DNA from: Mya arenaria | Lineage: Eukaryota; Mollusca; Bivalvia; Myida; Myidae | DNA length: 64,000 bases | NCBI RefSeq assembly: GCF_026914265.1 | Contig: NC_069126.1 | Span: 23,165,473 to 23,229,472, forward strand | Direction of reading: 5' to 3' | Shown: piece by piece, positions 1-48,423 of the stretch | Layout of the letters: every line of letters starts with the position of its first letter | Position numbering within the stretch: position 1 is the first letter of the stretch | Made by a program: the position numbers and the translations under genes | The notes under the pieces: model-generated | What the model saw: only the letters and a program-made list of their open reading frames with translations | The model's database searches: none | Told to the model about the DNA's origin: nothing

Positions 1-2063
1 ACGAAAATGAATGTCATGGGAAGAAACCAATCTTCTGTGAACCATGCCAGTATGATGACTCATTTGTAGAAGCAACGGGATTTTGTGTGACATGTTCCGA
101 GTATTTGTGTCAGACCTGTTGTCGCGATCACAAAAGAAACAAAGTAACAAGAGAACACTCACTATTAAAGAATGATGATATTCCCGTGGACAAAACGCCG
201 TTCACGACCATAAAGCAACTGTCGACCTGTGAAACTCATCCTGATAATGACATCGCATACGAATGCGGAGACCATGAAGTCTTCGTTTGCGTTTTCTGTC
301 TCACTGAGACTCATCGGAAATGCGAAAATGTCCATGATCTAGGGGCTGTTGATTCTTTCGATTCGGATATTAACATAATGGCAGAACTTCAAGACAGAAT
401 ACAGGCTTTACAATCACAAAAGGAAAAGCAACGAAAGACAATTGAAATAGAGCAACAAGAGATTAAAACCAACATTCAAAGTTTGGAAGAGAAATGGAAG
501 GACCATATAACCGGCTTGGGAAATGACCTTGAAACACAGTTAAGCGAAATGTCGATCTCCGAGACGAAGAAACTGATCGAACATATTAACGGCTGTCAAG
601 AAATCCAGACTGAGATAAACAGGAATAAGTCATTGATAGACACGCTTATGAAACACGGAACTAAGCGTCAAATCTCTGTTGTTCTGAGTCGAACGACCCA
701 TGCACGCGCTAATCTGAAAGAGAAACTTCAGACACTGGAACGTCAGCGTCAACAAAGTATCGTCCTTATGAACGTCAAAGAACTTTATTTGCTAACAACG
801 ATCGCCGAGTTATCTATAGAAGAGGAGGGCAAAAATGAACTTGACGTCTTGGAACACACAAGCGATGAAGTGCTTGTCACTTTACATTCTGAAAATGAAC
901 CAAGGGAGACAATCGATAAATCCATACAGACCAGTTTTGATGCCGCAAACTGCGATGCAAACAAAAGGTCGCCAAAAACGCCAAAGAAAATAGATAAATC
1001 CATACAGGCCAGTTTTGATGCCTCGAATCCTGGTGCAAACAAAAAGTTGCCCAAAACGCTAAAGAAAATAGATAAATCCATACAGGCCAGTTTTGATGCC
1101 TCGAACCCTGGTGCAAACAAAAAATTGCTCAAAACGCTAAAGAAAATAGATAAATCCATACAGACTGTCTCTCATGTTGCTATCCCTGATGCAAAACAAA
1201 GGTCATCCAAACGGTTTTTAGAAAGACAAATCGGGCAAAAAATAACTATATTCAATGTTAAAACAGAGACTGACGTATACACGTGCAGTATTTTTGCCGT
1301 TTACTTAACGGAGTACGGAGTCCTCGTTGCTGATTATGGCAACAGCAAACTTAAGCTCATCAATCGTAAATTTGAATTAATTTGTGAACACTCGCTGCCC
1401 GGACAGCCGGTCGATATGTGCTGCGATGGAGAGAATTGCTATGTCTGTTATTCAGACCTAAAGAAAGTGACAGCACTGTGCATAAACAAGACATCCATTT
1501 GGAGTTGTTATGAATATTACACCAAATATCAACCCCTTAGTCTGACTGTGTTCGACTCTCGACTTATGATTTTGTTTGCGTGTGATAAGAATTTTGACAA
1601 CACTGAAGCTGACGATGTACATATTGAAATTCGAAAGGGAAGTTCAATAAATGTTTTCATCTATAAACCCTATAACAACGGTTTTAAAGAAATAAAAGAG
1701 GCAAAGCGAATTTTTCTCTTCGATGCGTCTTCCATAGTTCTATCGGAAAACACGAGGGTGTCCTGCTATACGGTTGACACTGAAACAGAAGAACTACCAG
1801 ATCGAAAATGGTTCTACAAATCATATCAACAAAACGTTCTGGAAAAATCGAAAGGGGTCGCGAAAGATAGTGAAGGGAATGTCTATATTTGTGGTGAAGA
1901 TTCCAACAACGTTCATCAGGCGTCGTCTGCAAATTACAGACGTAACCGTGTGATTGTTCAGAACATCAATAGCCCAATGTGTGTTGCTCTGGACGATCAG
2001 AAAGATAGACTCATAATCGGATGTCGCGATGATAATTATCTGCATGTATACTCCTTCAAATAA
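1..2063 (+). CDS. BBX1: RING-less B-box/coiled-coil protein with propeller-like C-terminus, 5' end outside window
   Basis: The frame is open from the first complete codon (GAA at 3) to the TAA ending at 2063, about 686 residues. By comparison with its paralogs only about 19 N-terminal residues lie outside the window. The order is: B-box 1 (FCEPC, FCVTC, LCQTCC, then His), B-box 2 (CETH, YECGDH, CVFC, ESHRKC), a long charged coiled coil, a linker, and a beta-rich C-terminus with LVADYGNSKLKL and KDSEGNVYICGEDSNNVHQ. There is no RING. Compared with paralogs one glycine codon is missing after CHGKK. The linker carries four 26-residue repeats, against one unit in most paralogs, which makes it the longest copy. 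Family knowledge: TRIM-like proteins oligomerise through the coiled coil and use the C-terminal propeller for recognition. Ligand and function are unknown. No introns are visible. Confidence 0.85.
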   Translation, partial: ENECHGKKPIFCEPCQYDDSFVEATGFCVTCSEYLCQTCCRDHKRNKVTREHSLLKNDDIPVDKTPFTTIKQLSTCETHPDNDIAYECGDHEVFVCVFCLTETHRKCENVHDLGAVDSFDSDINIMAELQDRIQALQSQKEKQRKTIEIEQQEIKTNIQSLEEKWKDHITGLGNDLETQLSEMSISETKKLIEHINGCQEIQTEINRNKSLIDTLMKHGTKRQISVVLSRTTHARANLKEKLQTLERQRQQSIVLMNVKELYLLTTIAELSIEEEGKNELDVLEHTSDEVLVTLHSENEPRETIDKSIQTSFDAANCDANKRSPKTPKKIDKSIQASFDASNPGANKKLPKTLKKIDKSIQASFDASNPGANKKLLKTLKKIDKSIQTVSHVAIPDAKQRSSKRFLERQIGQKITIFNVKTETDVYTCSIFAVYLTEYGVLVADYGNSKLKLINRKFELICEHSLPGQPVDMCCDGENCYVCYSDLKKVTALCINKTSIWSCYEYYTKYQPLSLTVFDSRLMILFACDKNFDNTEADDVHIEIRKGSSINVFIYKPYNNGFKEIKEAKRIFLFDASSIVLSENTRVSCYTVDTETEELPDRKWFYKSYQQNVLEKSKGVAKDSEGNVYICGEDSNNVHQASSANYRRNRVIVQNINSPMCVALDDQKDRLIIGCRDDNYLHVYSFK
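912..1166 (+). repeat. 78-bp in-frame coding repeat in BBX1, four DKSIQ(T/A) motifs
   Basis: The codons for I-D-K-S-I-Q recur at 912, 990, 1068 and 1146, exactly 78 bp (26 codons) apart. Between them lies a Ser/Asn/Pro/Lys-rich spacer. Motifs 1 and 4 read DKSIQT; motifs 2 and 3 read DKSIQA. Neighbouring units are nearly identical in DNA, which suggests recent amplification. The core resembles the dynein light chain LC8 site (DKSTQT in Bim); that reading is an inference. Confidence 0.9.
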
Positions 2064-7934: not shown

Positions 7935-8012
7935 ATGATCTGTGAAAATGGCAACGCACCGTCAGGAAAATGTTCAGTGCCAGGAAACGTCAGCGGAAAA
8001 GAACGAAAATGA
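7935..8012 (+). promoter_or_regulatory. Upstream ORF overlapping the BBX2 start
   Basis: An ATG at 7935 lies 13 bases before the main ATG in another frame. It opens a 25-codon ORF that ends at TGA 8010-8012 inside the coding region. The same upstream ATG is present before BBX5 (26325), BBX6 (31248) and BBX9 (46533) but is lost in BBX3. Whether it is in the mRNA is not known. Confidence 0.4.
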
Positions 8013-9837
8013 ATGTTATGGGAAGAAAGGACCAATCTTCTGTGAAGCATGCCAGTATGATGATTCGTTTGAAGAGGCAACGGGATTTTGTGTGGCATGT
8101 TCCGAGTATCTGTGTCAGACCTGTTGCCGTGATCACAAAAGAAACAAGGTAACACGAGAACACTCGCTGTTAAAGAATGATGATATTCCCCCAGACATAT
8201 CGCCGTTTAAGACAATTAAGCAACTATCGACCTGCGATATTCATCCCGACAATGACATCGCATACGAATGCGGGGACCATGAAGCCTTGGTTTGCGTTTT
8301 CTGTCTAACTGAGAGCCATCGGAAATGCGAAAATATCCATGATCTAGGAGTTGTTGATTCTGTCGATTCGGATATAAACATTATGGCAGAACTTCAAGAC
8401 AGAATGCATGCGTTAAAAGCACAAAAGGAAGAACAACGCAACACGATCGTGATAGAACAAGAAAAAAATAAAATTGATGTTCAATGCCTGGTAGCCAAAT
8501 GGAAGGATCATATAACCCGCTTAGGAAATGACCTTCAAGCACAATTAACCGAAATGTCGCTTTCCGAGACAATGCAATTGAAAGAATATATTGATGACTG
8601 CCACGAAATCGAGATTGAAATACAAAGAAACAAGACATTGATAGAAACACTTATGATACACGGAACCAAGCGACAAATAGCTGTTGTTCTGAGACGAACA
8701 AACGATTCGCGCGCTAATCTTAAAGAGAAACTGCATACACTGAAATGTCAGCGTCGACGAAATATCGCGCTCATAAATGTCAAACAACTTGATTTGCTAA
8801 CAACGATCGCCGAGTTATCTTCAGAAGAGAAGGAAAACAGCAATACTGACATCTTGGAACACACAAGCGATGAAGTGAATGACAATGTGGATTTGAAAAA
8901 CAAACCTACGGTGAAAATTGATAAATCCATACAGACTAATTCTTCTTACTCAACATCTGATGGAAAACAAAGATCATCCAGACCGTTCTCAGAGAGAGAA
9001 ACCGGACAAATTATCAGTTTATTTAAAATCAAAACAGAAACAGACACGAGTACTTGCAGTATTTTTGGGGTTAAGCTATCTCAACATGGAATTCTGTTGG
9101 CTGATTTTGGCAACCGTAAGCTTAAACTCTTTAGCCGTAAATTCGACCTCATGTGCGAACAATCGCTACCTGGACAGCCGGTCGATATGAGTTTCGATGG
9201 AGAATATGCGTATGTGTGTTATTCAGACCTGAAAAAAGTAACCAAACATCCTATATACGATTCTTCGATAGGGGTTCCAATAGGATTTCAAACTCGGCTC
9301 CAGCCAATTAGTCTGACTGTGTTTGACTCTCGACTGATGATTTTGTTTGCGACCAAAGAGAGTTTTGACAGTACGACAGTAGATGATGTACATATTGAAA
9401 TCCGACGAGGAAATGCAATAGCTGCTACCATCTCATATAATACCGATAATAAAAGATTCAAGCATGTGAGAGCGGCAAAGCAGGTTTCTGTAGTCGATGG
9501 CTTGTCAATTGTTTTCTCAGAAAATACACGAGTAACCTGCTACACGGTTGATTCTCAGGAAAGTAAACTTCAAGATCGTGAATGGTATAACGAATCGAAT
9601 AAAGAAAACGTTCTCAAAAAAGCGAAAGGATTCGCAAAAGACAGTGAAGGAAATGTATATATTTGCGGTGAAGATTCCAACAACGTTCATCAAACATCAT
9701 CTACAAATAACAAAGGTAACCGTGTGGTTGTACACAATATCAATCGCCCCGTGAGTGTCGCTGTGGACGAACGGAAAGAAAGACTCATGATCGGGTGTCG
9801 CGCTGATAACTACCTGCATGTATTATCCTTCAAGTAG
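7948..9837 (+). CDS. BBX2: intact RING-less B-box/coiled-coil protein
   Basis: 629 residues in one exon. The start is the ATG at 7948 (AAAATGG context). B-box 1: Cys32, Cys35, Cys48, Cys51, Cys56, Cys59, His63, His72. B-box 2: Cys96, His99, Cys108, His111, Cys116, Cys119, His124, Cys127, His131. A coiled coil spans about 140-290, including WKDHITRLGNDL and IETLMIHGTKRQ. An acidic linker (DILEHTSDEV) leads to DKSIQT at 325-330. The C-terminus, about 352-629, is beta-rich with NHL-like strands (LLADFGNRKLKLFS, VDMSFDGEYAYVCY, KDSEGNVYICGEDSNNVHQ). Without RING or a clear effector domain, it is most likely a cytoplasmic TRIM-like scaffold or sensor. TRIM2/3/71-type proteins are the nearest architecture recognised. 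Substrate unknown. Confidence 0.92.
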   Translation: MATHRQENVQCQETSAEKNENECYGKKGPIFCEACQYDDSFEEATGFCVACSEYLCQTCCRDHKRNKVTREHSLLKNDDIPPDISPFKTIKQLSTCDIHPDNDIAYECGDHEALVCVFCLTESHRKCENIHDLGVVDSVDSDINIMAELQDRMHALKAQKEEQRNTIVIEQEKNKIDVQCLVAKWKDHITRLGNDLQAQLTEMSLSETMQLKEYIDDCHEIEIEIQRNKTLIETLMIHGTKRQIAVVLRRTNDSRANLKEKLHTLKCQRRRNIALINVKQLDLLTTIAELSSEEKENSNTDILEHTSDEVNDNVDLKNKPTVKIDKSIQTNSSYSTSDGKQRSSRPFSERETGQIISLFKIKTETDTSTCSIFGVKLSQHGILLADFGNRKLKLFSRKFDLMCEQSLPGQPVDMSFDGEYAYVCYSDLKKVTKHPIYDSSIGVPIGFQTRLQPISLTVFDSRLMILFATKESFDSTTVDDVHIEIRRGNAIAATISYNTDNKRFKHVRAAKQVSVVDGLSIVFSENTRVTCYTVDSQESKLQDREWYNESNKENVLKKAKGFAKDSEGNVYICGEDSNNVHQTSSTNNKGNRVVVHNINRPVSVAVDERKERLMIGCRADNYLHVLSFK

Positions 9838-13730: not shown

Positions 13731-13906
13731 AATATGGCACTAGATAGCAGTTGTTCTGACTCAGTTTATAAATATTGTGAGTGAATATATATGTTCACAC
13801 GGACTTAAGTTATCTTAATAGCATTTGCCTGTTTCGTTCGGATTTTCATTTAAAAAGCAAAAATATCTCATCATTGAGTATATAATTTGACAATTGATCT
13901 GTGAAA

Positions 13907-15796
13907 ATGGCCACGAACCGTCAAGACAATGTTCAATGCCTGGAGACGTCAATGGAAAATAAAGAAAATAAATGTCATCCGATGAAAGGACCAATATTCT
14001 GTGAACCCTGCCAGTATGATGAATCATTTGAAGAAGTAACGGGATTTTGTGTGACATGTTCCGAGTATTTGTGTCAGACCTGTTGTCGCGATCACAAAAG
14101 AAACAAAGTAACAAGAATACACTCGCTATTAAAGAATGCTGAAATTCCTGCGGACATAACGCCGTTCACGACCATAAAGCAACTATCGACCTGCAAAATT
14201 CATCCTGATAATGACATCGCATACGAATGCGAAGACCATGAAGCCTTGGTTTGCGTATTCTGTCTCACGGAAAACCATCGAAAATGCGAAAATGTCCATG
14301 ATTTAGGAGATGTTATTTCTGCGGATTCAGATGTTAACCTTATGGCTGCACTTCAAGAAAGAATACATGTGTTAAAAGCACAAAAAGAAGAGCAAAGGAA
14401 GACAAGCGAAATGGAGCAAGAAGCGATAAAAAACAACATTCAAAGCCTGGATGTCAAATGGAAGGATCATATAACTAGCTTGAGAAAAGACCTTGAGACA
14501 CAATTAAGCAAACTTTCGCTCTCAGGGACAACGCAGTGGAAAGAATCGATTGATGACTGTCATGAAATCGAGACTGAAATAACAAGAAACAAAATGTTGA
14601 TAGAAACACTTATGAAACACGGAACTAAACGACAAATAACTGTTGTTCTGCGACAAACCAAACATGCACGCGCTGATCTTAAAGAGAAACTGCAATCACT
14701 GGAATGTAAGCGTCAGCGAAATATCGCGCTCATTAACGTGAAACAATTTGATATGTTAACAGCTATAGCAGAGCTATCTTTAGAAGAGAAGGACAAAGAT
14801 AATATTGATATCTTGGAACACACAAGCGATGAAATGCATGACAATGAAGAATGTGAAAACAAACTTCCGGAGAAGATTGATAAATCGATACAGACTACTT
14901 CTCCTGTCTCGACATCTGATGCAAAACAAGTGCCATCAAAACCGTTATCAGAGAGAGATAGCGGACAAATTATAACGCTTGTAAATGTCAAAACAGCCAC
15001 AGACAGGAATATTTGCAGTATTTTTGGAGTTAACTTGCCTCACTATGGAATTCTGTTAGCTGATTTTGGCAACAGTAAACTCAAACTTTTCAGCGATAAA
15101 TTCGATTTAATTTCCGAACAATCGCTACCAGGAAAGCCGATTGATATGACTTTTGATGGAGAGTATGCTTATGTTTGCTATTCAGACCTGAAGAAAGTCA
15201 CCAAACATAGCATAAACAAAACCTCGATAGGGGGTTTAATGGAATTTTCAACCAGACTACGACCGATAAGTCTGACTGTGTTTGACACCCGACTGATAAT
15301 TTTGTTTGCGACCAATGAGAATTTTGACAGTACGGAAGTTGATGATGTACATTTAGAAATCCGAAAAGGAAGTTCCATAGATGCCACAATCTCCTACGAT
15401 TCCGACGACGAATGTTATAACTATGTAGAAGACGCAAAGCAAGTCTCTGTTTTCGATGAGTCATCAGTAGTTTTTTCGGAAAACACACGAGTTACATGCT
15501 ATACAATCGATGCACAAGATGGTGAACTCCTAGATCGAAAATGGTATTACAAATCGCATAATAATAAGGTTCTCAAAAAAGCAAAAGGGGTCGCGAAAGA
15601 CAGTGAAGGGAATATTTATGTTTGCGGTGAAGATTCCAACAACGTTCATCAGACATCATCTACAAATTACAGACGTAACCGTGTGGTTATCTCGAACATC
15701 GATAAACCCATTTGTGTCGCCGTGGATGAGGCAAACGATAGACTTATAATCGGATGTCGCAGTCATAACTATCTACATGTATACTCTTTCAAATAG
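13907..15796 (+). CDS. BBX3: intact RING-less B-box/coiled-coil protein
   Basis: 629 residues, single exon, start ATG at 13907 (AAAATGG). The order is as in BBX2: B-box 1 from about residue 32 (FCEPC, FCVTC, LCQTCC), B-box 2 (CKIH, YECEDH, CVFC, ENHRKC), coiled coil, one DKSIQT motif (codons from 14876), and the propeller-like region ending in CRSHNYLHVYSFK. All putative zinc ligands are kept. Its nearest relative in the window is the broken copy BBX6 at 31261. The two share flanks on both sides and define a duplication with an offset of about 17.4 kb. Unlike other copies, it lacks the overlapping upstream ATG. Function is inferred only from architecture. Confidence 0.92.
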   Translation: MATNRQDNVQCLETSMENKENKCHPMKGPIFCEPCQYDESFEEVTGFCVTCSEYLCQTCCRDHKRNKVTRIHSLLKNAEIPADITPFTTIKQLSTCKIHPDNDIAYECEDHEALVCVFCLTENHRKCENVHDLGDVISADSDVNLMAALQERIHVLKAQKEEQRKTSEMEQEAIKNNIQSLDVKWKDHITSLRKDLETQLSKLSLSGTTQWKESIDDCHEIETEITRNKMLIETLMKHGTKRQITVVLRQTKHARADLKEKLQSLECKRQRNIALINVKQFDMLTAIAELSLEEKDKDNIDILEHTSDEMHDNEECENKLPEKIDKSIQTTSPVSTSDAKQVPSKPLSERDSGQIITLVNVKTATDRNICSIFGVNLPHYGILLADFGNSKLKLFSDKFDLISEQSLPGKPIDMTFDGEYAYVCYSDLKKVTKHSINKTSIGGLMEFSTRLRPISLTVFDTRLIILFATNENFDSTEVDDVHLEIRKGSSIDATISYDSDDECYNYVEDAKQVSVFDESSVVFSENTRVTCYTIDAQDGELLDRKWYYKSHNNKVLKKAKGVAKDSEGNIYVCGEDSNNVHQTSSTNYRRNRVVISNIDKPICVAVDEANDRLIIGCRSHNYLHVYSFK

Positions 15797-18645: not shown

Positions 18646-20520
18646 AAACATACATTGCGTAAAATCTTCAATATCATGGAAAAATGACGGAATGCAATGA
18701 GCCTAAATGCAATATGAAGAAAGGACCTATCTTCTGTGAACCATGCCAGTATGACGATTGTTTTGAAGAGGCAAAGGGATTCTGTGTGGCATGTGCCGAG
18801 TATTTGTGTTAGACCTGTTGTCGCGATCACAAAAGAAACAAAATAACACGAGAACACTCGCTGTTAAAGAATTATGATATTCCCGCGGACATAACACCGT
18901 TTACGACCATAAAGCAACTATCGACCTGCGATATTCATACTGATAACGACATCGCCTACGAATGTGGAACACATAAAGTCTTGGTTTGCGTTTTTTGTCT
19001 CACGGAGAGCCATCGGAAATGCAAAAATGTTCATGATTTAGGAGTTGTTGTTTCTGCCGATTCTGATATTAACATTATGAAAGAACTTCAGACCAGAGTT
19101 CATGTGTTAAAAGCACAAAAAGCAGATCAATGGAAGTCAATCGAAATGGAGCAAGTAGAAGTTCAAAACAATATTAAAGGCCTTGTAGCCAAATGGAAGG
19201 ACCATATAACCAACTTTGGAAGTGAACTTGAAACAAAATTAAGCGAAATGTCGCACTCCGAGACAATGCACTTGATAGAATCTATTTATGGCTGTCAAGA
19301 AATCGACACGGAAATAACAAGAAACAATGCGTTGATAGAAACACTTATGAAACACGGAACAAAGCGACAAAAAGCTATTGTTTTGCGGCCAACAAACATG
19401 CACGCGTTGATCTTAAAGAGAAACTTCAAACACTCGAATGTCAGCGTCAACAAAGTATCGCGCTCATTAACATGAAACAGTTTGATGTTCTAACAATGAT
19501 CGCAGAGTTATCGTTAGTAGAGAAGAGCAAATATAAAATTGACACATTGGAACAGACCAGCGATGAAGTGCATGACAATTTGGAAAATATACCAAGGGAG
19601 AAAACTGATGAATGCACACACACACGAATTTTGCTGTCTTGAGCCCTGATGCAAAACAAAATTCCTCTAAGCCGTTCTCAGAAATAAAAAGCGGACAAAA
19701 GATAACTTTGTTTAAAGTTAAAACAGAAACAGACACAAACACTTGTGGTATCTTTGCCGTTAAAATACGAGGTTCTTGTTTCTGATCATCGTAACCAAAA
19801 ACTTAAGCTTTTCAGTCGAAAAACTGACTTACTTTGTGAACAATTGCTACCCGGACAGCCAGTAGACATGTGTTTTGATGGAACCTTTGCCTATATCTGC
19901 TATTCAGACCTAAAGAGAGTGACGAAATACTTCATAACCAAAGTTGCGATTTGTCTTTTTGACAGAATTTCCAACCAAGCTCCAACCGATAAGTTTAACT
20001 GTTTTTGACTCCCGACTGATGATTTTGTTTGCAACTAAAGAGGACTTTGACAGTACCTCAGCTGACGATGTTCGAATTGAAATCCGAAATAGAAGGTCAA
20101 TAGATGCCACCATCTCGTACGATTCCGACGATGATAGTTTTAACTAAGTAGAAGATGCAAAGCAAGTATTTGCATTCGATGAGTCGTCTGTTGTTTTCTC
20201 GGAAAACTTGCGGATGTCCTGCTATACCGTCGGTAAGCCGACTTGAAAACCAATACATCGACAATGGTTTTACCAATCACATGCCAATCACATTCTAAGA
20301 AAAGCGAAAGGGGTTGCGAAAGACAGTGAAGGGAATATCTATATTTGCGGTGAAGATTCCAGCAACATACACCAGGTGTCATCTATAAACCACATGCGTA
20401 ACCGTGTGATTATCTCGCGCTGTGATCGTCCTGTTTGCATCGCCGTAGACGAACTGAAAGATAGACTCATAATCGGATGTCGGATTGGTAACTATTTGCA
20501 AGCGTACTCATTTTTCAGGT
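18645..20520 (+). pseudogene. BBX4: broken B-box/coiled-coil paralog, mosaic
   Basis: All domains of the family can be followed, but the gene is disabled. The ATG equivalent to that of BBX7 is directly followed by TGA. A TAG at 18810-18812 replaces Gln in B-box 1 (LCQTCC). A one-base loss near 19397 shifts the frame in the coiled coil. There are more shifts near 19620 and 19765, and a TAA near 20145. The normal stop is lost at the end (CATTTTTCAGG). The 5' flank and N-terminus (CAEYLC, ITREHS) match BBX7, while the 3' half and downstream flank match BBX9 (TDECT motif region, RIGNYLQAYSF). The gene is therefore a recombinant between two lineages. The LC8-like motif has decayed to TDECTHT. Confidence 0.9.
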
Positions 20521-22710: not shown

Positions 22711-24850
22711 TTGAAATGTGTTCGGTAGCATTGAGGTGACATGTGTACGGTATCACGAATGTGACATGTGAACGAAAACATGAAGGTGACATGTGTACGG
22801 AAGAATGAAAGTGACATGTGTACGGTAGCATGGAGGTGACATGTGTACGGGTGCATGGACGTGACATGTGTACAGTAGTATAGAGGTGACATGTGTACGG
22901 TAGCATAGAGGTGACATGTGTACGGTAGCATAGAGGTGACATGTGTACGGTAGTATAGAGGTGACATGTGTACGGTAGCATTGAGGTGACATGTGTACGG
23001 GTGCATGGACGTGACATGTGTACGGTAGCATAGAGGTGGCATGTGTACGGTAGCATGGAGGTGATATGTGTACGGTAGCATAGAGGTGACATGTGTAAGG
23101 AAGCATAGAGGTGACATGTGTACGGTAACCTGGAGGTGACATGTGTACGGTAGCATAATGGTGACATGTGTGCGGTAGCATTGATGTGACATGTGTACGG
23201 TAACATGTAGGTGACATGTGTACGGTAGCACTGAGGTGATATGTTTACGGTAGCATAGAATTGGCATGTGCACGGTAGAATATAGGTGACATGTGTACGG
23301 TAGCATGGAGGTGACATGTGTACGGGAGCCTGGAGGTGACATGTGTACGGTAGCATGGAGGTGATATGTGTACGGTAGCATAGAGGTGGCATGTGTACTG
23401 GAGCCTGGAGGTGACATATGTACGGTAGCATAGAGCTGACATGTGTACGGTAGAATAGATGTGGCATATGTACGGGAGCCTTGAGGTGACATGTGTACGG
23501 TAGCATGGAGTTGACATGTGTACGGTAACATAGAGGTGACATGTGTACGGTAGCATTGAGGTGGAATGTGTACGGAAGCATAGAGGTGACATTTGAACGG
23601 TAGCATAATGGTGATATGTGTACTGTAGCACAGAGGTGACATGTGTATGGAAGCATAGAAGTGGCATGTGTAAGGTAGCATAGAGGTGACATGTGTACCG
23701 TAGCATAGAGGTGACCTGGGTACGGGAGCCTGGAAGTGACATGTGTACGGTAGCATTGAGTTAATATGTGTACCGTTGCATAGAGGTGGCATATGTACGG
23801 TAGCATGGAGGTGACATGTGTAAAGGAGCCTGGATGTGACATTTGTACGTTAGCATTGAGGTGATATGTGTACGGTGGTATTGAGGTTGCATAATTACGC
23901 GAGCCTGGAGGTGACATGTGTTCGGTAGTATAGAGTTGAAATGTGTACGGTAGCATAGAGGTGACATGTGAACGGTAGCATAATGGTGATATGTGTACGG
24001 TAGCACAGATTTGGCATGTGTACGGAAGCATAGAGTTGACATGTTAACGGTAGCATAATTGTGACATGTGTACGGTAACGTAGAGGTGACATGTGTACGG
24101 AAGCATAGGTGTGACATGTGTACGGTAGCATAGTGGTGACATGTGTACGGAAGCATAGAGATGACATGTGTACGGTAGCTTAGATGTGACATGTGTACGA
24201 TGGCATAGACGTGACATGTGTACGGCAGCATAGAGGTGAAATGTGTACGGTAGCATGGAGTTGACATGTGTACGGTAGCATAGAGGTGACATATGTACGG
24301 TAGCATAAAGGTGGCATGTGTACGGTTGCATGGCGGTGACATGTGTATGATTGCATAGAGGTGAAATATGTACGGCAGCATAGAGGTGACATGTGTACGG
24401 GAGCCTAGAGGTGACATGTGTATGGTAGCATAGAGGTGACATGTGTACGTTCGCATAGAGGTGACATGTGTACGATAGCATTGAGATGACATATGTACAG
24501 TAGCATGGAGGTGACATGTGTAAGGTAGCATGTAGGTGACATGTGTACGGTAGCATGTAGGTGACATGTATACGGTAGCATGGAGGTGACATGTGTACGG
24601 TAGCATAGAGGTGTCACATGTACGGTATCGTAGAGGTTACATTTGTACGGTAGCATGGAGGTGACATGTGTACGGGTGCATAGAGGTGACATTCGTACGT
24701 TAGCATAGAGGTGACATGTGTACGGTAGCATGGAGGTGACTTGTGTACGGTATCATAGAGATGACATGTGTACGTTAGCATAGAGGTGACATTTGTACGG
24801 TAGCATAGAGGTGAAATGTATACGGTAGCATTGAGGTGACATGTGTACAT
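22711..24850. repeat. 25-bp minisatellite array 1, about 85 units
   Basis: Tandem units of 25 bp with the core ACATGTGTACGGTAGCATAG. Unit borders fall on an exact 25-bp grid over long stretches. Variant units (GGGAGCCTGGAG, GGGTGCATGGAC) recur at multiples of 25, often 75 or 150 bp, giving a weak higher-order pattern. The period is not a multiple of three and the minus strand has no stop in any frame. It therefore yields overlapping minus-strand ORFs up to 511 codons that encode permutations of one 25-residue repeat (MLPYTCHLYATVHMSP...). These are not genes. Confidence 0.97.
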
Positions 24851-26337
24851 TTTCTAGCTGTATTAAGTTGGAAAGAAATCTCAAAAAAGGTAATTTGTGC
24901 AATGGAAAAGTCATAATATGTCAACGTACATACAATACAAAGGGATAACCGGTAGTTTCTGTGTACTTGGGATATGCTACACAGTTCTACATTTGTTTTA
25001 TTCGAAACTGACAATTCTCGTTTTATGCCCTTTCAATTTATAATTTATTTTCATTTTCACGCCGACATCTTACACATATTTTAAAAGTAGTTGTTGCAAA
25101 TAAAAATCGCGACAAAACTCGTACAATAATGTCTATACCTGTAAAATATCTTCCGCCTATCTTTAAATGATGCAATATCCGTTGAATTTAAGATTTAGAC
25201 GCACAAAATGCATTATATCATGCCTATTTTGCATTGTCTGTCACTAGTAATTAATAAAGAGGTGGGAACATAAGCAATAATTCAATAATTGCTCAGTGTC
25301 ATGTTTTCACACCTTGAAATGCAATATCTCAAGTTCTGCTCTTTGTCATGTTTTCACACCTTGAAATGCAATATCTCAAGTTCTGCTCTTTGTCATGTTT
25401 TCACACCTTCATGTAGAAATGTAATATCTCAAGTTCTGCACTTTGTTATGTTTTCTCAGCTACATGTGGAAATGTAATATCTCAAGTTCTGCTCTTTGTC
25501 ATGTTTTCTCACCTAGATATCGAAATAACTCATCATTTGATATGACACTTATTACAACCTTATTATACTGTCCACACTTATTACAACGAATATTTTGACG
25601 AAATTATGAGTGTAATGTACAAAACGAAATGTTATATTGTATATTTGTTAAGGGAAACACAGACACAATAAATATGGACGTGAAGCATAAATGAATAAGT
25701 GAATGAATATAATTTCTTGTAATATATAAACTTAAAATGGAATAATTCAAATTCCCAAACATAACCTTCGGATTTCCCTATTCAGAAAAAAAAATCAATA
25801 AAAAAACAATACATTCGAAAGGAAATCCCAAACAAAATGCAATAATTTCAATTTCATTATGTCTTTATTTGTAAAACAAGCAAAGCTGTTGAATGAACGG
25901 GCGTAGGGCTATCGGGAATAGGTTTTTGATTTACTATATTCTGCATAACCTGGGATTGACTTTACTCAAATAAGTTTTGGAAAATCCAGAATGACTCAGG
26001 AATCAAGTTATTGAAACACAAGTGTCTACATTTAAGCAGAAGAAGAAGGTATGATTTATTCCATTTCGACGTATCAGCAGGTATAGTTTCCGATGACAAC
26101 CATTTCAGATACAGCTGTTTGTTGTATAATGTACGATGTGAAATAACTGATTCCGACTCAATTTATCAATATAGTCAGCGAATAGATGAAGTTGAAGAAA
26201 CGGACGCAAGTTATCTGTAATGGACATGTTATCTTTAGAGGACTTAATTATCTGTTTCGAACTGATATTCACTTGAATGGCGTGTTTGTAAATGTGTGAT
26301 TATTTAGTTTATAACTTGACAATAATGATCTGTGAAA
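24851..26337. other. Array 1 right flank and BBX5 upstream region
   Basis: The part from 24973 to about 25560 is a duplicate of 56731-57175. The stretch from about 26040 resembles the promoter-proximal region of the other B-box genes, with a diverged block (GTATCAGC...TTCCGATGACAACC near 26070) and TCAGCGAATAGATG near 26175. No gene was recognised. Confidence 0.6.
25290..25530. repeat. 47-53-bp tandem repeat, about five units
   Basis: Units start at 25290, 25337, 25384, 25437 and 25490 and share TGCTCTTTGTCATGTTTTC and ATATCTCAAGTTC. The first two are 47 bp, the next two 53 bp. A three-unit version is at 57016-57150, in the duplicated flank. Confidence 0.9.
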
Positions 26338-28224
26338 ATGGACATGAACCGTCAAGAAAATATTCAATACCAGGAAACATCAACGGAAAATAACGAAAAT
26401 GAATGTAATGGGAAGAAAGAACCAACCTTCTGTGAACCATGCAAGTATGATGATTCGTTTGAAGCAGCAACGGGATATTGTGTGACATGTGCAGAGTATC
26501 TGTGCCACTCCTGTTGTCGGGATCACAAAAGAAACAAAGTTACAAGAGAACACTCGCTGTTAAAGAATGATGAAATTCCTGCTGACATAACACCGTTTAA
26601 GACCATTAGGCAACTATCAACATGCGAATATCATCCTGATATTGACATCGCATACGAATGCGAAGACCATGAAGCCTTAGTTTGCGTTTTCTGTCTCACG
26701 GAGAGCCATCGGAAATGTGGAAATGTCCATGATCTAGGAGTTGATGATTCTGCTGTTTCGGATGTTGATGTGATGGGAGCACTTCAAGAAAGAATACAGG
26801 CGTTACAACTACAAAAGGAAGAGCAACGGAAGACAATCGAAATAGAGCAACAAGAGGTGAAAACAAACATTCAAAGTCTGGTAACCAAATGGAAGGACCA
26901 TATAACCGGTTTGGGAAATGACCTTGAAACACAGTTAAACGAAGTGTCGCTCTCCAAGACAAAGCAATTGATAAAAGATATTGGCGGCTGTCAAAAAGTC
27001 GAGACTGAAATAACAATAAACAAGACGTTAATAGAAACACTTATGAAATACGGAACTAAGCGACACATATCTGTTGTACTGAGACGTACAAGCCGTGCAC
27101 GCTTTGATCTTAAAGAGAAACTTAAAACACTGGAATGTCAACATCAACAGAATATTGCGCTCGTGAACGTAAAACAATTAGAAGCACTAACAACGATGGC
27201 TGAATTATCTTTAAACGAGCAGGACAAAGATAACAACGACATCTTGGAAAACACAAGCGATGAAGTACATGTCACTTTAGATTCGGAAAATAAAACAACG
27301 GAGAAAATTGATCGATCCATACAGACTATACTACCTGTCTTGATCAATGAGCCCAAACAAAGGTCATCCAAGCTGTTCGCAGAAAGAAAAAGCGGACAAA
27401 AAATAACTTTATTCAAAGTCAAAACAGAAACAGATGTGAGCATGTGTGGTATTTTTGCCATTAACTTAGCGGAGTACGGAGTCCTCGTTGCTGATTATGG
27501 CAACAGAAAACTTAAGCTTTTCAGTCGTAAATTTGACTTTATTTGTGAAAACTCGCTGCCAGGACCGCCTGTCGATATATGCTGCGATGGAGAGTATGCT
27601 TATGTCTGCTATTCAAACCTAAAGAAAGTGACGAAATATCGCATAAACACGACATCCATTTGGCGTTGTAATGAAATTTCCACTAGCTACCAACCATTAA
27701 GTCTCACTGTATTCGACTCTCGACTTATGATTTTGTTTGCGAATACTGAAAATTTTGACAGCACGGCAGATGACGACGTACATATTGAAATTCGAACCGG
27801 AAGTGCTATAGATTGTGCGATATTTAAATCCGATTACGAAGGTTTAGAAGATGTGAAAGACGCAAAGCGAGTTTTTCACTTCGATGCGTCGTCCATAGTA
27901 CTCTCTGAAAACACGAGGGTGTCCTGCTATGATGTTGACACTCAAGCCAAAAAACTAACATGTCGAAAATGGTTCTACAAATCGTATCACCAAAACGTTC
28001 TTAAAAAAGCAAAAGGGGTCGCGAAAGACAGTGAAGGGAATATCTACATATGTGGTGAAGATTCCAACAACGTTCATCAGGTGTCGTCTACTTATTACAG
28101 ATGTAACCGTGTGATTGTTCAGAACATCAATAGCCCCGTGTGTGTCGCAGTGGACGACCAGAAAGATAGACTCATCATCGGATGTCGCGATGATAATTAT
28201 CTGCATGTATACTCCTTCAAATAG
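26338..28224 (+). CDS. BBX5: intact RING-less B-box/coiled-coil protein
   Basis: 628 residues in one exon, start ATG at 26338 in the shared AAAATGG context. B-box 1 (FCEPC, YCVTC, LCHSCC) and B-box 2 (CEYH, YECEDH, CVFC, ESHRKC) keep all ligands. The coiled coil follows (WKDHITGLGNDLETQL, IETLMKYGTKRH). The linker has a single DRSIQT. The C-terminal region resembles those of BBX1 and BBX7 (LVADYGNRKLKLFS, CRDDNYLHVYSFK) and keeps KDSEGNIYICGEDSNNVHQ. The upstream ATG at 26325 overlaps the start as in BBX2. It is the only B-box gene directly downstream of a minisatellite array. Function as for BBX2, by architecture only. Confidence 0.92.
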   Translation: MDMNRQENIQYQETSTENNENECNGKKEPTFCEPCKYDDSFEAATGYCVTCAEYLCHSCCRDHKRNKVTREHSLLKNDEIPADITPFKTIRQLSTCEYHPDIDIAYECEDHEALVCVFCLTESHRKCGNVHDLGVDDSAVSDVDVMGALQERIQALQLQKEEQRKTIEIEQQEVKTNIQSLVTKWKDHITGLGNDLETQLNEVSLSKTKQLIKDIGGCQKVETEITINKTLIETLMKYGTKRHISVVLRRTSRARFDLKEKLKTLECQHQQNIALVNVKQLEALTTMAELSLNEQDKDNNDILENTSDEVHVTLDSENKTTEKIDRSIQTILPVLINEPKQRSSKLFAERKSGQKITLFKVKTETDVSMCGIFAINLAEYGVLVADYGNRKLKLFSRKFDFICENSLPGPPVDICCDGEYAYVCYSNLKKVTKYRINTTSIWRCNEISTSYQPLSLTVFDSRLMILFANTENFDSTADDDVHIEIRTGSAIDCAIFKSDYEGLEDVKDAKRVFHFDASSIVLSENTRVSCYDVDTQAKKLTCRKWFYKSYHQNVLKKAKGVAKDSEGNIYICGEDSNNVHQVSSTYYRCNRVIVQNINSPVCVAVDDQKDRLIIGCRDDNYLHVYSFK

Positions 28225-36228: not shown

Positions 36229-38268
36229 ATGAGAATGGAAACAAGCATTGCGAAAAATCAAGAACAATTGACGGAATGTAATGAGACTGAATGCACTAAG
36301 AAAAAAGGACCTTTCTTCTGTGAACCATGCCAGTATGACGATTGTTTTGAAGAGACAACGGGATTCTGTGTGACGTGCGCCGAGTATTTGTGTCAGACCT
36401 GTTGTCGCGATCACAAAAAAAAAAAATAACACGAGAACACTCGTTATTAAAGAATGATGATATTCCTGCAGACCCATCGCCGTATAAGACTATTAAGCAA
36501 CTATCGACCTGCGATATTCATCCTGATAACGACATCGCATACGAGTGCGGAGACCATGAAGCCTTGGTTTGCAATTTTTGTCTCACTGAGAGTCATCGGA
36601 AATGCGAACATGTCCATGAAATAGGTGTATTTGATTCTTCCGATTCGGATGTTGACATTATGGCAGAACTTCAAGACAGAATACAGGCTTTTCAATCACA
36701 AAAGGAAAAGCAACGGAAGACAATTGAAATAGAGCAACAAGAGGTTAAAACCAAAATTCAAAGTTTGGTAGAGAAATGGAAGGATCAAATAACCTGCTTG
36801 GGAAATGACCTTGAAACACAGTTAAGCGAAATGTCGCTCACCGAGACAAAGAAACTGATAAAACATATTGATGGCTGTCAAGAAATCCAAACTGAGATAA
36901 ACAGGAATAAGTCATAAGATAGACACGATTATGAAACATGGAACTAAACGGCAAATCTCTGTTGTTCTGAGACAAACGAACCATGCACGCGCTAATCTGA
37001 AAGAGACACTGCAGACACTGGAACTTCAGCGTCAACAAAGTATCGTGCTTATGAACGTCAAAGAAAACGATTTGCTAGCAACGATCGCCGAGTTATCTTT
37101 AGAAGAGAAGGGCAAAAATGAACTTGACGTTTTGAAACACACAAGCGATGAAGTGCTTGTCACTTTAGATTCTGAAAATAAACCAAGGGAGACAATCGAT
37201 AAATCCATACGGACCAGTTTTCTTGCCCCAAACTCTGATACAAACCAAAGGTCGCCCAAAACGCTAAAGAAAATAGATAAATCCATACAGACCAGTTTTG
37301 ATGCCTCGAACCCTTGTGCAAACCAAAAGTTGCCCAAAACGCTAAAGAAAATAGATAAATCTATACAGACTGTCTCTCATTTTGCGACCCCTGATGCAAA
37401 ACAAAGGTCATCCAAACGGTTTTTAGAAAGACAAATCGGGCATAAAATGACTATATTCACTGTTAGATCAGAGACTGACGTAAACACGTGCAGTATTTTT
37501 GCCGTTTACTTAATTGAATATGGAGTTCTTGTTGCTGATTGTAGCAACAGAAAACTTAAGCTCTTCAGTCGTAAATTTGACTTAATTTGTGAACACTCGC
37601 TGCCCGGACAGCCGGTCGATATGTGCTACGATGGAGAGAATTGCTATGTCTGTTATTCAGACCTTAAGAAAGTGACAAACCATCGCATAAACAAGACATC
37701 CATTTGGGATGTTACTGCATTTTTGACCCGTAATCAACCACTTAGCCTAACTATGTTCGACTCTCGGCTGATGATTTTGTTTGGGAATAATGATAATTTT
37801 GACAGCACGGCAGTTGACGATGTACATATTGAAATTCGAACGGGATGTTATATAGATGTATCCATACATCAATCCGATGACGAAGGTTTGGAATACATCA
37901 AACACGCAAAGAAAGTTTTTGTGTTCGCTGTGTCGTCCATAGTTCTCTCGGAAAACACGAGGGTGTCCTGCTACAAGGTCGATACTCATGCAAAAAAACT
38001 AACAGATCGAAAATGGTTCTACAAACCATATCAACAAAACGATCTCAAAAAAGCGAAAGGGGTAGCGAGAGACAGTGAAGGAAACATCTACATATGTGGT
38101 GAAGATTCCAACAACGTTCATCAGGCATCGTCTTTAAATTACAGTCGTAACCGTGTGATTGTTCAGAACATCAATAGCCCCATGTGTGTTGCTCTGGACG
38201 ATCAGAAAGATAGACTCATAATCGGATGTCGCGATGATAATTATCTGCATGTATACTCCTTCAAATAG
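36229..38268 (+). pseudogene. BBX7: nearly intact B-box paralog with two frame breaks
   Basis: ATG at 36229 opens METSIAKNQEQLTECNETEC and B-box 1. In the run of twelve A at 36415-36426, where paralogs have AAAAGAAACAAAA, one base is missing and the frame shifts just after CCRDHKKKK. The rest of B-box 1 and B-box 2 continue in the shifted frame to TAA 36915-36917, where an extra base restores the first frame. The 445 codons from 36931 to 38268 are open: end of the coiled coil, three 26-residue linker repeats and the full propeller-like region ending CRDDNYLHVYSFK. The two breaks cancel in frame. It is close to BBX1, including the 3' flank. It could be a young pseudogene, a null allele or a consensus error in the A run. 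Confidence 0.8.
37195..37371 (+). repeat. 78-bp in-frame linker repeat in BBX7, three motif copies
   Basis: I-D-K-S-I codons recur at 37195, 37273 and 37351, spaced exactly 78 bp. The three cores read SIRT, SIQT and SIQT. The arrangement is the same as in BBX1 but one unit shorter. Confidence 0.9.
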
Positions 38269-39990: not shown

Positions 39991-41472
39991 TGAGCAACGG
40001 AAGACAATCGAAATAGAACAACAAAAGGTTAAAACCAATATTCAAAGTCTGGTAACCAAATGGAAGGACCATATAATCGGGTTGGGAAATGACCTTGAAA
40101 CAAAATTAAGCGAAATGTCGTTGTCCGAGACAACGCAATTGATAGAACATATCGATGGCTCTCAAGAAATCCAGACTGAGATAAAGAGGAACAAGTCATT
40201 GGTAGACACGCTGATGAAACATGGAACTAAACGGCAAATCTCTGTTGTTCTAAGACAAACGAACCATGCACGCGCTAATCTGAAAGAGACACTGCAGACG
40301 TTGGAACGCCAGCGTCAACAAAGTATCGTGCTTATGAACGTCAAAGAATTCGATTTGCTGACAACGATCGCAGAGTTATCTTTGGAAGAGGAGGGCAAAG
40401 ATGAATTTGGCATCTTGGAACACACAAGTGATGAAGTGCTTGTCTTTTTAGATTCTGAAAATAAACCAAGGGAGAAAATTGATGAATCCATACAGACCAG
40501 TTTTACTGCCTCGAACCCTGATGCAAACCAAAGACCGCTCAGACCGGTAACGAAAAAAGATAGATCCATACAGACTGTCTCTCATGTTGCGGTCCCTGAT
40601 GCAAAACAAACGTCATCCAAACGGTTTTTAGAAAGACAAATCGGGCAAAAAATAACTCGTTTCATTGTAAGAACAGAGACAGACGTAAACACGTGCAGTA
40701 TATTTGCAGGTTACTTAACGGAGCACGGAGTCCTCGTTGCTGATTATGGCAACAGCAAACTTAAGCTTTTCAGTCGTAAATTTGACTTAATTTGTGAACA
40801 CTCGTTGCCCGGACCGCCGGTCGATATGTGCTGCGATGGAGAGAAATGCTATGTCTGTTATTTAGACCTAAAAAAGTGACGACACTGTGCATAAACAAGA
40901 CATCCATTTGGATCTGTAATGAATATTACACCAAACATCAACCACTTAGTCTGACTGTGTTCGACTCTCGACTTATGATTTTGTTTGCGTGTGATGAGAA
41001 TTTTGACAACACTGAAGCTGACGATGTACATATTGAAATTCGCAAGAGAAGTTAAATAGATGTTTCCATCTATGAACCCTATAACAACGGTTTTAAAAAC
41101 GTGAAAGATGCAAAGCGAATTTTTCGCTTCGATGCGTCTTCCATAGTTCTATCGGAAAACACGAGGGTCTCCTGCTATGAGCTTGACACTCAGGCACAAC
41201 TACTAACAGATCGAAAATGGTTCTACAAATTATATCAACAAAACGTTCTCATAAAAGCAAAAGGGGTCGCAAAAGACAGTGAATGGATTGTCTATGTTTG
41301 CGGTGAAGGCTCCAACAGCGTTCATCAGGCGTCGTCTACTAATTACAGACGTAACCGTGTAGTTGTACAGAACATCAACAGCCCCGTTAGTGTCGCAGTG
41401 GACGAACAGAAAGATAAACTCATCATCGGTTGTCGCGATGATAATTACCTGCATGTATTCTCTTTCAAATAG
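39991..41472 (+). pseudogene. BBX8: 5'-truncated B-box paralog lacking both B-boxes
   Basis: Homology starts abruptly at about 39991 inside the coiled coil (EQRKTIEIEQQKVKTN) and runs to the family stop at 41472. Promoter, start codon and both B-boxes are absent. The upstream DNA is the 3' flank of BBX7 up to the junction, so an unequal exchange or deletion fused the two. The linker has two 26-residue units (DESIQT codons from 40478, DRSIQT from 40556). A base lost in the A run at 40869-40875 shifts the frame, a TAA is at 41053-41055, and the normally invariant KDSEGN is KDSEWI. The C-terminal 123 codons are open. Confidence 0.93.
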
Positions 41473-46310: not shown

Positions 46311-46545
46311 TATGACACTTGAAAGGGCTGATTTAAAACACGAATAGATTTTTAGAGACAGTTTTCTTTACAGTATGATCTGTCTTCTTCGGATTAAGTT
46401 TATAAATATTGTCAGCGAATATATAATACACGGACTTAAGTTATCTTTATAGCATTTGCATGTTTTACCGAGTTTCACTTAAATAGCATTCTTGTTTGTA
46501 AATACATTTTTATAGATTTTCACTTCGCAATAATGATAAGTGAAA

Positions 46546-48423
46546 ATGGCAATGAACCGTAAAGAAAATATTCAAGGCCAGGAAACGTCAACGGAAAAGA
46601 ACAAAAATGAATGTAATGGGAAGAAAATACCAATCTTGTGTGAAGCATGCAAGTATGATGATTCGTTTGAAGAGGCAACGGGATTTTGTGTGACATGTTC
46701 CGAGTATTTGTGTCAGACCTGTTGTCGCGATCACAAAAGAAACAAAGTAACAAGAGAACACTCGTTGTTAAAGAATGATGATATTCCTGCGGACATAACG
46801 CCGTTTAAGACCATTAAGCAACTATCGACCTGCGATATTCATCCTGACAATGACATCGCATACGAGTGCGGAGACCATGAAGCTTTGGTTTGCGTTTTCT
46901 GTCTTAATGAGAGTCATCGGAAATGCGAAAATATCCATGATCTAGGAGTTGTTGATTCTGCTGATTCAGGTATTAACATGATGGCAGAACTTCAAGACAG
47001 AATACATGCGTTAAAAGCACAGCGGAACGAGATCGAGATTGAACAAGAAAAAAATAAAATTAATTTGCAATGCCTGGTAGCCAAATGGAAGGATAATATA
47101 ACCGGCTTAGGAAATGATTTTGATACACAATTAAGCGAAATGTCACTCTCCGAGACAACGCAATTGAATGAATATATTGATGGCTGTCAGGAAATCGAGA
47201 CGGATATAACTAGAAACAAAGCGTTGATCGAAACACTTATGAAACACGGAACAAAGCGACAAAAGGCTGTTGTTCTGCGACGAATAAACCATGCACGCGT
47301 TGATCTTAAAGATAAACTACAAAAACTCGAATGTCAGCGTCAACAAAGCATCGCGCTCATTAACGTGAAACAGTTTGCTGTTCTAACAATGATTGCAGAG
47401 TTATCGTTAGAAGAGAAGAGCAAATATAATACTGACACATTGGAACAGACCAGCGATGAAGTGCATGACGATTTGGATTCGGAAAATATACCAAGGGAGA
47501 AAATTGATGAATGCACACAAACGAGTTTTGCTGTCTCGAACTCTGACGCAAAACTAAGGTCCTCTAAGCCGTTCTCAGAAAGAGAAAGCGGACAAAAAAT
47601 AACTTTGTTTAAAGTTAAAACAGAAACAGACACAAACACTTGTGGTATTTTTGCCATTAAATTAACAGAATATGGAGTTCTTGTTGCTGATCATCGTAAC
47701 AGAAAACTTAAGCTCTTCAGTCGAACATTTGACTTAATTTGTGAACACTCGCTTCCCGGTCAGCCGGTAGACATGTGTTTTGATGGATCCAGTGCCTATG
47801 TCTGCTATTCAGACCTAAAGAAAGTGACGAAACACAAAATAACCGAAAATACGATTTTGAATGAAATGGAAACTCCAACTCGGCTCCAACCGATAAGTCT
47901 AACTGTTTTTAACTCCCGACTGATGATTTTGTTTGTAACTCAAGAGAACGTTGACAGTTCGGCAGCTGACGATGTTCAAATTGAAATCCGAAAAGGAAGT
48001 TCAATAAATGCCACCATCTCGTATGATTCCGACGATGATAGTTTTAACTATGTAAAAGATGCAAAGCAAGTTTTTGCATTAGGTAAGTCGTCCATTGTTT
48101 TCTCAGAAAACTGGCGGGTGTCCTGCTATACCGTCGGTAAGCAGACTAGAGAACTAATTCATCGACAATGGTTTTACCATTCACATGCCAATCAAATTCT
48201 AAAAAAAGCGAAAGGGGTTGCGAAAGACAGTGAAGGGAATATCTATATTTGCGGTGAAGATTCTAACAACATTCACCAGGTGTCGTCTAAAAACTACAAG
48301 CGTAACCGTGTGATTATCCCTCGCTGTGATCGTCCTGTTTGCATCGCCGTAGACGAACAGAAAGATAGACTAATAATCGGATGTCGGATTGGTGACTATT
48401 TGCAAGCGTACTCATTTAAATAG
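46546..48423 (+). CDS. BBX9: intact RING-less B-box/coiled-coil protein
   Basis: 625 residues, single exon, start ATG at 46546 (AAAATGG). A second in-frame ATG is two codons later. B-box 1 (LCEAC, FCVTC, LCQTCC) and B-box 2 (CDIH, YECGDH, CVFC, ESHRKC) are complete. The coiled coil is about four residues shorter than in BBX2 because of an in-frame loss after ALKAQ. The linker motif is DECTQT, which keeps the TQT core. The C-terminus differs from the other intact copies: it ends CRIGDYLQAYSFK and has ENWRVSCYTV for ENTRV. It is the nearest relative of the 3' half of BBX4. The upstream ATG at 46533 opens a nine-codon overlapping ORF. Function as for BBX2, by architecture only. Confidence 0.92.
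   Translation: MAMNRKENIQGQETSTEKNKNECNGKKIPILCEACKYDDSFEEATGFCVTCSEYLCQTCCRDHKRNKVTREHSLLKNDDIPADITPFKTIKQLSTCDIHPDNDIAYECGDHEALVCVFCLNESHRKCENIHDLGVVDSADSGINMMAELQDRIHALKAQRNEIEIEQEKNKINLQCLVAKWKDNITGLGNDFDTQLSEMSLSETTQLNEYIDGCQEIETDITRNKALIETLMKHGTKRQKAVVLRRINHARVDLKDKLQKLECQRQQSIALINVKQFAVLTMIAELSLEEKSKYNTDTLEQTSDEVHDDLDSENIPREKIDECTQTSFAVSNSDAKLRSSKPFSERESGQKITLFKVKTETDTNTCGIFAIKLTEYGVLVADHRNRKLKLFSRTFDLICEHSLPGQPVDMCFDGSSAYVCYSDLKKVTKHKITENTILNEMETPTRLQPISLTVFNSRLMILFVTQENVDSSAADDVQIEIRKGSSINATISYDSDDDSFNYVKDAKQVFALGKSSIVFSENWRVSCYTVGKQTRELIHRQWFYHSHANQILKKAKGVAKDSEGNIYICGEDSNNIHQVSSKNYKRNRVIIPRCDRPVCIAVDEQKDRLIIGCRIGDYLQAYSFK

Follow-up and report, generated by a model that had tools for sequence, protein, structure and literature searches.

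In Swallow of Drosophila, a single LC8 motif lies 15 residues beyond a self-associating coiled coil, on its C-terminal side, and its binding to the dynein light chain LC8 has been measured (200 nM). For 53BP1 and ASCIZ, the sections of the literature used here state that the spacing and strength of the motifs set the complexes formed, and multi-site clients of LC8 have been studied to learn how the size of the complex depends on the distance between the sites and on their strength. Here we compare with these clients the linker of a family of B-box proteins (BBX) of the bivalve Mya arenaria. The genes lie in a window, the whole 64,000-nucleotide stretch of DNA analysed, which corresponds to C5:23165473-23229472 of a 1.216-Gb, 18-contig genome. 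The linker of the first gene, BBX1, contains a 78-bp coding repeat with an LC8-like motif in every unit. Judging from sequence comparison, we consider it moderately probable that this linker is a predicted LC8-client segment, that its sites are weak singly and rely on dimeric avidity, and that the repeats change the spacing of the sites. BBX1 is composed as follows, where scores are those of the matrix described below.

3..2063, + strand: BBX1 open frame, with the 5' end cut by the window edge; two B-boxes, coiled coil, repeat linker and putative NHL-like propeller
909..986, + strand: BBX1 repeat unit 1 (TIDKSIQTSFDAANCDANKRSPKTPK), motif IDKSIQTS at 912-935, score 12.9
987..1064, + strand: BBX1 repeat unit 2, degraded motif IDKSIQAS at 990-1013, score 6.0
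1065..1142, + strand: BBX1 repeat unit 3, degraded motif IDKSIQAS at 1068-1091, differing from unit 2 at 3/78 bases
1143..1220, + strand: BBX1 last unit, motif IDKSIQTV at 1146-1169, score 8.9

The start codon of BBX1 lies just beyond the window edge, and the full gene (locus L019) encodes 705 amino acids from the first ATG. Motif positions are numbered from the glutamine Q0, and the reported motifs span −5 to +2. Tandem Repeats Finder places the array at 907-1163 (period 78, 3.3 copies, 90% matches, score 402). The four motif copies are each exactly 26 codons from the next, and the last is followed by the downstream linker that is common to single-motif genes. A sequence-only reading of the window had called the 78-bp repeat exact. 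The period is indeed constant at 26 codons, whereas the sequences are not identical: any two of the four copies differ at between 3 and 28 of the 78 bases. The copy numbers given in that reading (four in BBX1, three in BBX7, two in BBX8, and one each in the intact BBX2, BBX3, BBX5 and BBX9) agree with the sequence, the frames and Tandem Repeats Finder.

The states of the individual copies should be noted. BBX1, BBX7 and BBX8 each have two motifs in which QT is intact, as two copies read IQA in BBX1 and one reads IRT in BBX7. BBX7 and BBX8 are broken frames, and BBX1 is the sole intact array gene in the window. Four intact array genes are available in total (L019, L020, L021 and L024, the last two being 99.9% identical), and each has two QT motifs, which are 78, 52, 26 and 26 residues apart, respectively. 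Three or more motifs with an intact anchor occur in none of the four, and the middle motifs are IQA in 3/3 cases (two in L019 and one in L020). The proposal that repeat expansion has tuned multivalency was rejected as the principal interpretation, because the middle units of the intact array genes have all lost the QT anchor and two QT motifs are found whatever the repeat number. Between the kept 8-residue motifs lie 18, 44 or 70 residues.

The first and last units of one gene give a sharper internal control than comparisons between genes, because both have had equal time to diverge. Between the first and last units of BBX1, the seven motif codons show 0/16.7 nonsynonymous and 2/4.3 synonymous differences, and the other 18 codons show 17/41.8 and 8/12.2, respectively (Fisher test on rounded nonsynonymous counts, 0/17 versus 17/42, p = 0.0012). 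When the five array genes, which are not independent and of which two are broken, are pooled, 10% of nonsynonymous and 47% of synonymous sites differ in the motif, versus 42% and 51% in the rest of the unit. That synonymous divergence is similar in the two parts speaks against a gene conversion confined to the motif. The first and last motifs have been kept by purifying selection, as this comparison shows most clearly in BBX1.

Conservation among paralogs was followed in 25 rows of contig C5 read as frames, of which 19 are intact. Q0 and T+1 are kept in the last or only motif of all 19 intact copies. Position −4 is acidic in 19/19 (D 16, E 3), and position −1 is I or T in 16/19 (I 12, T 4, M 2, L 1; hence TQT in 4/19). 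The remaining positions vary: −5 is I in 15, M in 2 and N in 2; −3 is K in 10, E in 4, R in 3 and Q in 2; −2 is S in 14, C in 4 and I in 1; and +2 is T in 5, S in 5, V in 4, I in 2, N in 2 and L in 1. No intact copy among those read lacks Q0, which is lost in the broken BBX4 (DECTHT).

Ratios of nonsynonymous to synonymous divergence (dN/dS) were obtained as pairwise Nei-Gojobori counts over 18 paralogs, pairs of which share ancestry and are not independent. Seven of the 25 rows were left out of this set: L002, L009, L014 and L024 (near-identical to kept rows), the near-identical pair L015 and L016, and L017. The ratio is 0.22 in the B-box region, 0.39 in the coiled coil, 0.49 in the upstream linker, 0.82 in the downstream linker and 0.31 in the propeller, compared with 0.16-0.17 in the motif core (−1 to +1) and 0.31-0.32 in the motif from −4 to +1. 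The nearest 15 codons give 0.59 upstream and 0.96 downstream (0.58 and 0.90 when L015 is added to make 19 rows). With the 14 intact rows only, the values are 0.11-0.13 for the core, 0.31-0.33 for the motif, and 0.56 upstream and 0.76 downstream for the flanks. The core and the motif are more constrained than their nearest flanks, and the contrast held in all row sets.

The history of the repeat can be followed from the same units. The first and last units within a gene differ at 28 to 30 of 78 bases, and the first duplication is therefore old. It is found in both BBX8 and L021, and is therefore older than their split from BBX7/BBX1. The third unit is common to BBX7, BBX1 and L020, whose second units differ by 3 to 7 bases, and the fourth is seen only in BBX1, whose second and third units are the pair differing by 3 bases. 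BBX1 has four units and L020 three despite 98.1-98.3% DNA identity. L019, L020 and L021 form one clade in the tree (100/100), of which BBX7 and BBX8 are not among the rows. The middle units in both L019 and L020 have IQA, which the second unit of BBX7 lacks, so the change most simply predates the copying of the fourth unit; the newest unit of BBX1 would then most simply have copied an already degraded motif.

The remaining motif copies in the window are the following.

8920..8937, + strand: single motif DKSIQT of BBX2 (7939-9837, intact), from frame and sequence
14879..14896, + strand: single motif DKSIQT of BBX3 (13898-15796, intact), from frame and sequence
19607..19624, + strand: motif DECTHT of BBX4 (broken; frames 18813-19475 and 19232-19642), Q0 lost, from frames
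27310..27327, + strand: single motif DRSIQT of BBX5 (26329-28224, intact), from frame and sequence
37198..37371, + strand: motifs DKSIRT, DKSIQT and DKSIQT of BBX7 (broken frames, 36351-38268) with a 78-bp period, from frames and tandem repeat
40481..40576, + strand: motifs DESIQT and DRSIQT of BBX8 (broken frames, 39971-41472), 78 bp apart, from frames
47506..47523, + strand: single motif DECTQT of BBX9 (46540-48423, intact), from frame and sequence

A second cluster of copies lies at C5:41.55-41.79 Mb in the opposite orientation to that in the window. The two clusters, 18 Mb apart, contain genes that are about 98% identical (L001/L002 and L019/L020). L006 and L009 differ at 15 coding bases, as do L001 and L002. 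Since 70 of 1866 candidates were scored in the genome search, the number of copies is a lower bound. Within the gene cluster of the window, a related 25-bp minisatellite also forms three large arrays (22712-24848, 51055-52683 and 60620-63267), and an open frame on the minus strand (55674-56429) appears by eye to encode repeated C2H2 zinc fingers.

The BBX proteins are, from profile comparisons, RING-less TRIM-like proteins with two B-boxes, a long coiled coil, the linker and a predicted NHL-like propeller. A Pfam scan of six window proteins gave zf-B_box above the cut-off in 3/6, with both zf-B_box and an ANCHR-like B-box below it in BBX1. No RING family was found at E up to 0.1 in these six, of which three are incomplete (two pieces of broken genes, and BBX1 without its first residues). 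The NHL, SGL and SBBP scores of the propeller are all below the Pfam cut-offs. A profile of seven window proteins matches the B-box/coiled-coil chains of TRIM28 (6h3a, E 3.2e-6), and its C-terminal end matches NHL-type chains (PknD 1rwi and Pizza designs) over about 54 residues. The AlphaFold model, built from the 7-row window alignment A1, is poor (mean predicted local distance difference test score, pLDDT, 37.3). It contains a long helix at residues 122-280 of the window protein, whose pLDDT, averaged by blocks, is 52-74 at residues 131-250 and drops after that. Residues 281-412 or so, with pLDDT of 23-33 in this poor model, have no strands and three short helices.

Candidate ligands of the motif were judged with a position-specific scoring matrix (PSSM) of our own, constructed from 36 binder motifs and 27 nonbinder peptides from papers, together with amino-acid background frequencies. 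Statements taken from the papers cited in this and the following paragraphs refer to the tables and sections of them used here. From the nonbinders, 16/43 rows of Tables 1-2 of Jespersen 2019 were dropped because they lacked an xQT/xQA anchor, began with it or were not human; the TMV SIQT peptide is among them. From the binders, two viral rows, four weak rows and the second MUC4 row of the same paper, a duplicate Hippo row and the weak dASCIZ QT3 were dropped. The leave-one-out area under the receiver operating characteristic curve is 0.82. IDKSIQTS and IDECTQTS both score 12.9, with 14/36 binders lower and 2/27 nonbinders as high or higher. IDKSIQTV scores 8.9, IDKSIQAS 6.0, IDKSIRTS 5.5 and IDKFIQAS 0.6, and KDKSTQTS of L028, a partial frame on C5, reaches 19.7.

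The highest scores are found in two distant paralogs on contig C8, the linkers of which contain SDKGTQTD (L058, 21.5) and SDQGTQTD (L060, 19.7). These are near-ideal predicted LC8 sites, and the two proteins share 73% identity over 396 residues, so they are not independent. None of 5000 shuffles of the whole L058 sequence reached 19.7; among 20000 shuffles of its 90-residue linker, two reached 19.7 and none 21.5. On C8 and C5 alike, the site follows the coiled coil and precedes the propeller (residue 324 of 637 in the L058 frame and 324 of 629 in L007), and MAFFT places the two sites in different columns. The tree allows either one gain of the motif with losses or two gains. In the C15 relatives, the linkers contain loosely motif-like sequences with E at Q0 (L047 SKSIETN, L048 SKLIETN and L056 APIETNV), of which SKSIETN scores 2.8.

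LC8 itself is present in the same genome. There are 15 matches to PF01221, and 11 open exons have one common C-terminal segment, which we take to line the peptide groove. The product of one of them, L031, differs from a solved LC8 (1rhw) by two substitutions over 84 aligned residues. As far as is known, one or two LC8 are usual in animals, and the protein seems to be expanded in this genome, judging from the 11 open exons. The loci L031-L041 are on C4 (16.19-17.09 Mb and 11.38 Mb), C1 (2.78 Mb) and C11 (53.6 Mb), and six of them lie in two matching blocks on C4.

The published measurements bear differently on the TQT and IQT forms. VDKSTQTD binds LC8 with a dissociation constant (Kd) of 0.07 μM, and zipper-dimerised peptides reach Kd under 0.01 μM (Rapali 2011). 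That study selected apolar residues at −5, where the C5 motifs mostly have I. A review of LC8 lists IQT among the anchors, the 53BP1 mutation T1171I, which gives an IQT anchor in an oligomer, leaves a complex population like that of the wild type, and TLK1 SFKIIQTD is a mapped LC8 site. Taken with the scores, these data suggest that the TQT members are likely to bind LC8, that the IQT members plausibly do so within a dimer, and that the IQA copies are unlikely to. LC8 is the best candidate ligand of the linker motif, and this assignment is partly supported. The sequence-only reading had proposed that the proteins recruit LC8; the conserved motif, the TQT sites of L058 and L060 and the ordinary LC8 of the genome favour this, whereas the inference about affinity is weaker than was stated, given the isothermal titration calorimetry (ITC) data on SIQT peptides.

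Several observations weigh against the proposed LC8-client linker. Three of three related monomeric SIQT peptides in Table 2 of Jespersen 2019, DAZL VDRSIQTV, FMN2 EAKSIQTS and a TMV peptide, were non-binding by ITC, which speaks against strong binding as monomers, and the DAZL peptide is close to the last motif of BBX1 (IDKSIQTV) and to KDRSIQTV of BBX8. The last or only C5 motifs other than that of L028 score 2.1-12.9, where binders and nonbinders overlap; the IQT copies are in this range, and TQT anchors are present in 4/19 intact C5 copies, in L028 and in the C8 pair. In the last motif of the 19 intact copies, P, D and E are absent from position +2, and 7 copies have V, I or L there, residues that are unfavourable at this position according to Jespersen 2019, where −5 shows only a slight bias, towards positive charge. 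The 19 intact copies are not 19 independent observations, because several are near-duplicates (L013/L014 99.8%, L015/L016 99.8% and L021/L024 99.9% identical over 4-5 kb). The motif is also one of several conserved islands in the linker, the TSDE block being another, and some six-codon linker windows are more conserved than the motif (6/60 for the last motif, 9/60 for the first). The contrast between first and last units is weaker in L021 and BBX8, with 4.0/16.7 and 3.5/16.6 nonsynonymous differences in the motif, respectively. Disorder of the linker is only suggested by the poor AlphaFold model. Finally, the motif is absent in 13/15 distant tree rows (L059 and L061 on C8, and the C14 and C15 rows), all 13 with open frames of at least 595 residues, as well as in two C17 frames and one further C14 frame; the best whole-protein PSSM matches in motif-less distant relatives are 8.8 or less. 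The motif is therefore a feature of the C5 clade and one C8 pair, not of the whole family.

Two side observations concern these copies. The pairs L013/L014, L015/L016 and L021/L024 lie about 90 kb apart (C5:41.65 and 41.74 Mb), and their near-identity points to either a recent tandem duplication or an assembly duplicate. The second conserved island has the form LE[HN]TSDE[VM] about 25 residues before the motif in the C5 copies, and a similar SSDDV is found in C8 relatives.

On the LC8-client interpretation, the coiled coil would dimerise the BBX protein and present paired linkers, and an LC8 dimer would clamp them, one β-strand entering each groove as in Swallow and 53BP1. The clamp could stiffen the link between the coiled coil and the propeller or bridge dimers. 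Single IQT sites are probably weak and dependent on avidity. In one clade, the motif and its downstream residues were apparently duplicated as a 26-residue unit, leaving the kept motifs 26, 52 or 78 residues apart, so that expansion would have lengthened the gap and added no sites. Walker 2023 observed uniform LC8 complexes with 6- and 9-residue linkers and mixed ones with 30- and 41-residue linkers, and suggests that 12 and 16 residues may already be long. By this measure, the gaps of 18, 44 and 70 residues are expected to give mixed, dynamic complexes.

A tetravalent BBX1 scaffold comparable with ASCIZ, in which expansion raises LC8 valency, would draw on the four 26-residue units, each with a recognisable motif, and on the ability of multivalent display to rescue weak sites (Jespersen 2019). 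We regard it as quite improbable, as the IQA middle copies of the intact genes score only 6.0 and 0.6, the QA peptide PPP2R3A SSQAN is a nonbinder in Table 1 of that paper, and the first copy of BBX7 is IRT in a gene that is itself broken; the near-identity of units 2 and 3 in BBX1, both IQA, points to the copying of a degraded motif. Equally doubtful is the notion that the motif has no ligand and is kept for folding, as a propeller strand or coiled-coil cap, while the repeats are neutral slippage. Slippage does predict a difference such as that between the four units of L019 and the three of L020 at their high DNA identity. However, two copies kept 26 to 78 residues apart amid diverging flanks misfit a single structural slot, the low-confidence AlphaFold model has no strand at the motif, and the 13 motif-less distant rows keep long open frames.

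Recognition of [IM][DE]xS[ITLM]QT by a partner other than LC8 is possible, though we hold it to be rather unlikely. Position −1 is I, L or M in 15/19 intact C5 copies, whereas it is T in 28/36 collected binder motifs, and the failure of SIQT peptides with LC8 points the same way. On the other hand, L028 and the C8 paralogs have TQT motifs in which −4 is D and −3 is K or Q, a close match to LC8; the invariant Q0 and T+1 with a free +2 fit LC8, and we know of no other xQT-binding domain, no search having been made for one.

If the LC8-client interpretation is correct, the family offers a natural series of proteins with one site, or with two at 26, 52 or 78 residues, in which spacing can be tested with little engineering, and it would tie TRIM-like proteins to the hub LC8, a connection that was not apparent among the titles listed by literature searches. 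Should LC8 not be the ligand, the conservation of the QT motif still points to another partner under selection. A bolder extension, which we consider unlikely, sees the coding minisatellite as a molecular ruler: in this B-box family, which would be lineage-specific, 26-residue units would set the distance of 26, 52 or 78 residues between two selected LC8 sites, and the family of clients, perhaps of immune sensors, may have expanded jointly with an LC8 hub that numbers at least 11 open exons. The title of Regan 2021 concerns immune gene family expansions in bivalves, and the part of that paper used here includes a table row for a B-box-type orthogroup annotated with interferon-beta production, for which two columns give 8.9 and 0.1.

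Among the known systems, TRIM28/TIF1β has a RING, B-boxes and a coiled coil, of which the B-boxes and coiled coil are common to the BBX proteins and the RING was not found in the six scanned, while the propeller end resembles the NHL-type propellers of PknD (1rwi) and the Pizza designs. An LC8 site in a TRIM protein was not apparent among the titles listed by literature searches, which are a weak test of absence. BBX1 is like Swallow in that its motif follows the last helix by about 24 residues in the low-confidence model. It differs in that B-boxes and a propeller flank the site, and in that the motif is known from its sequence, with mostly IQT anchors, whereas the affinity of Swallow is a measured one. 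As in 53BP1 and ASCIZ, several LC8-type motifs that differ in strength are grouped in a single stretch of the array genes; the sections used here do not present the motifs of those clients as units of an exact tandem coding repeat. In the BBX array genes, unlike in 53BP1 and ASCIZ, the middle copies are degraded and two are kept.

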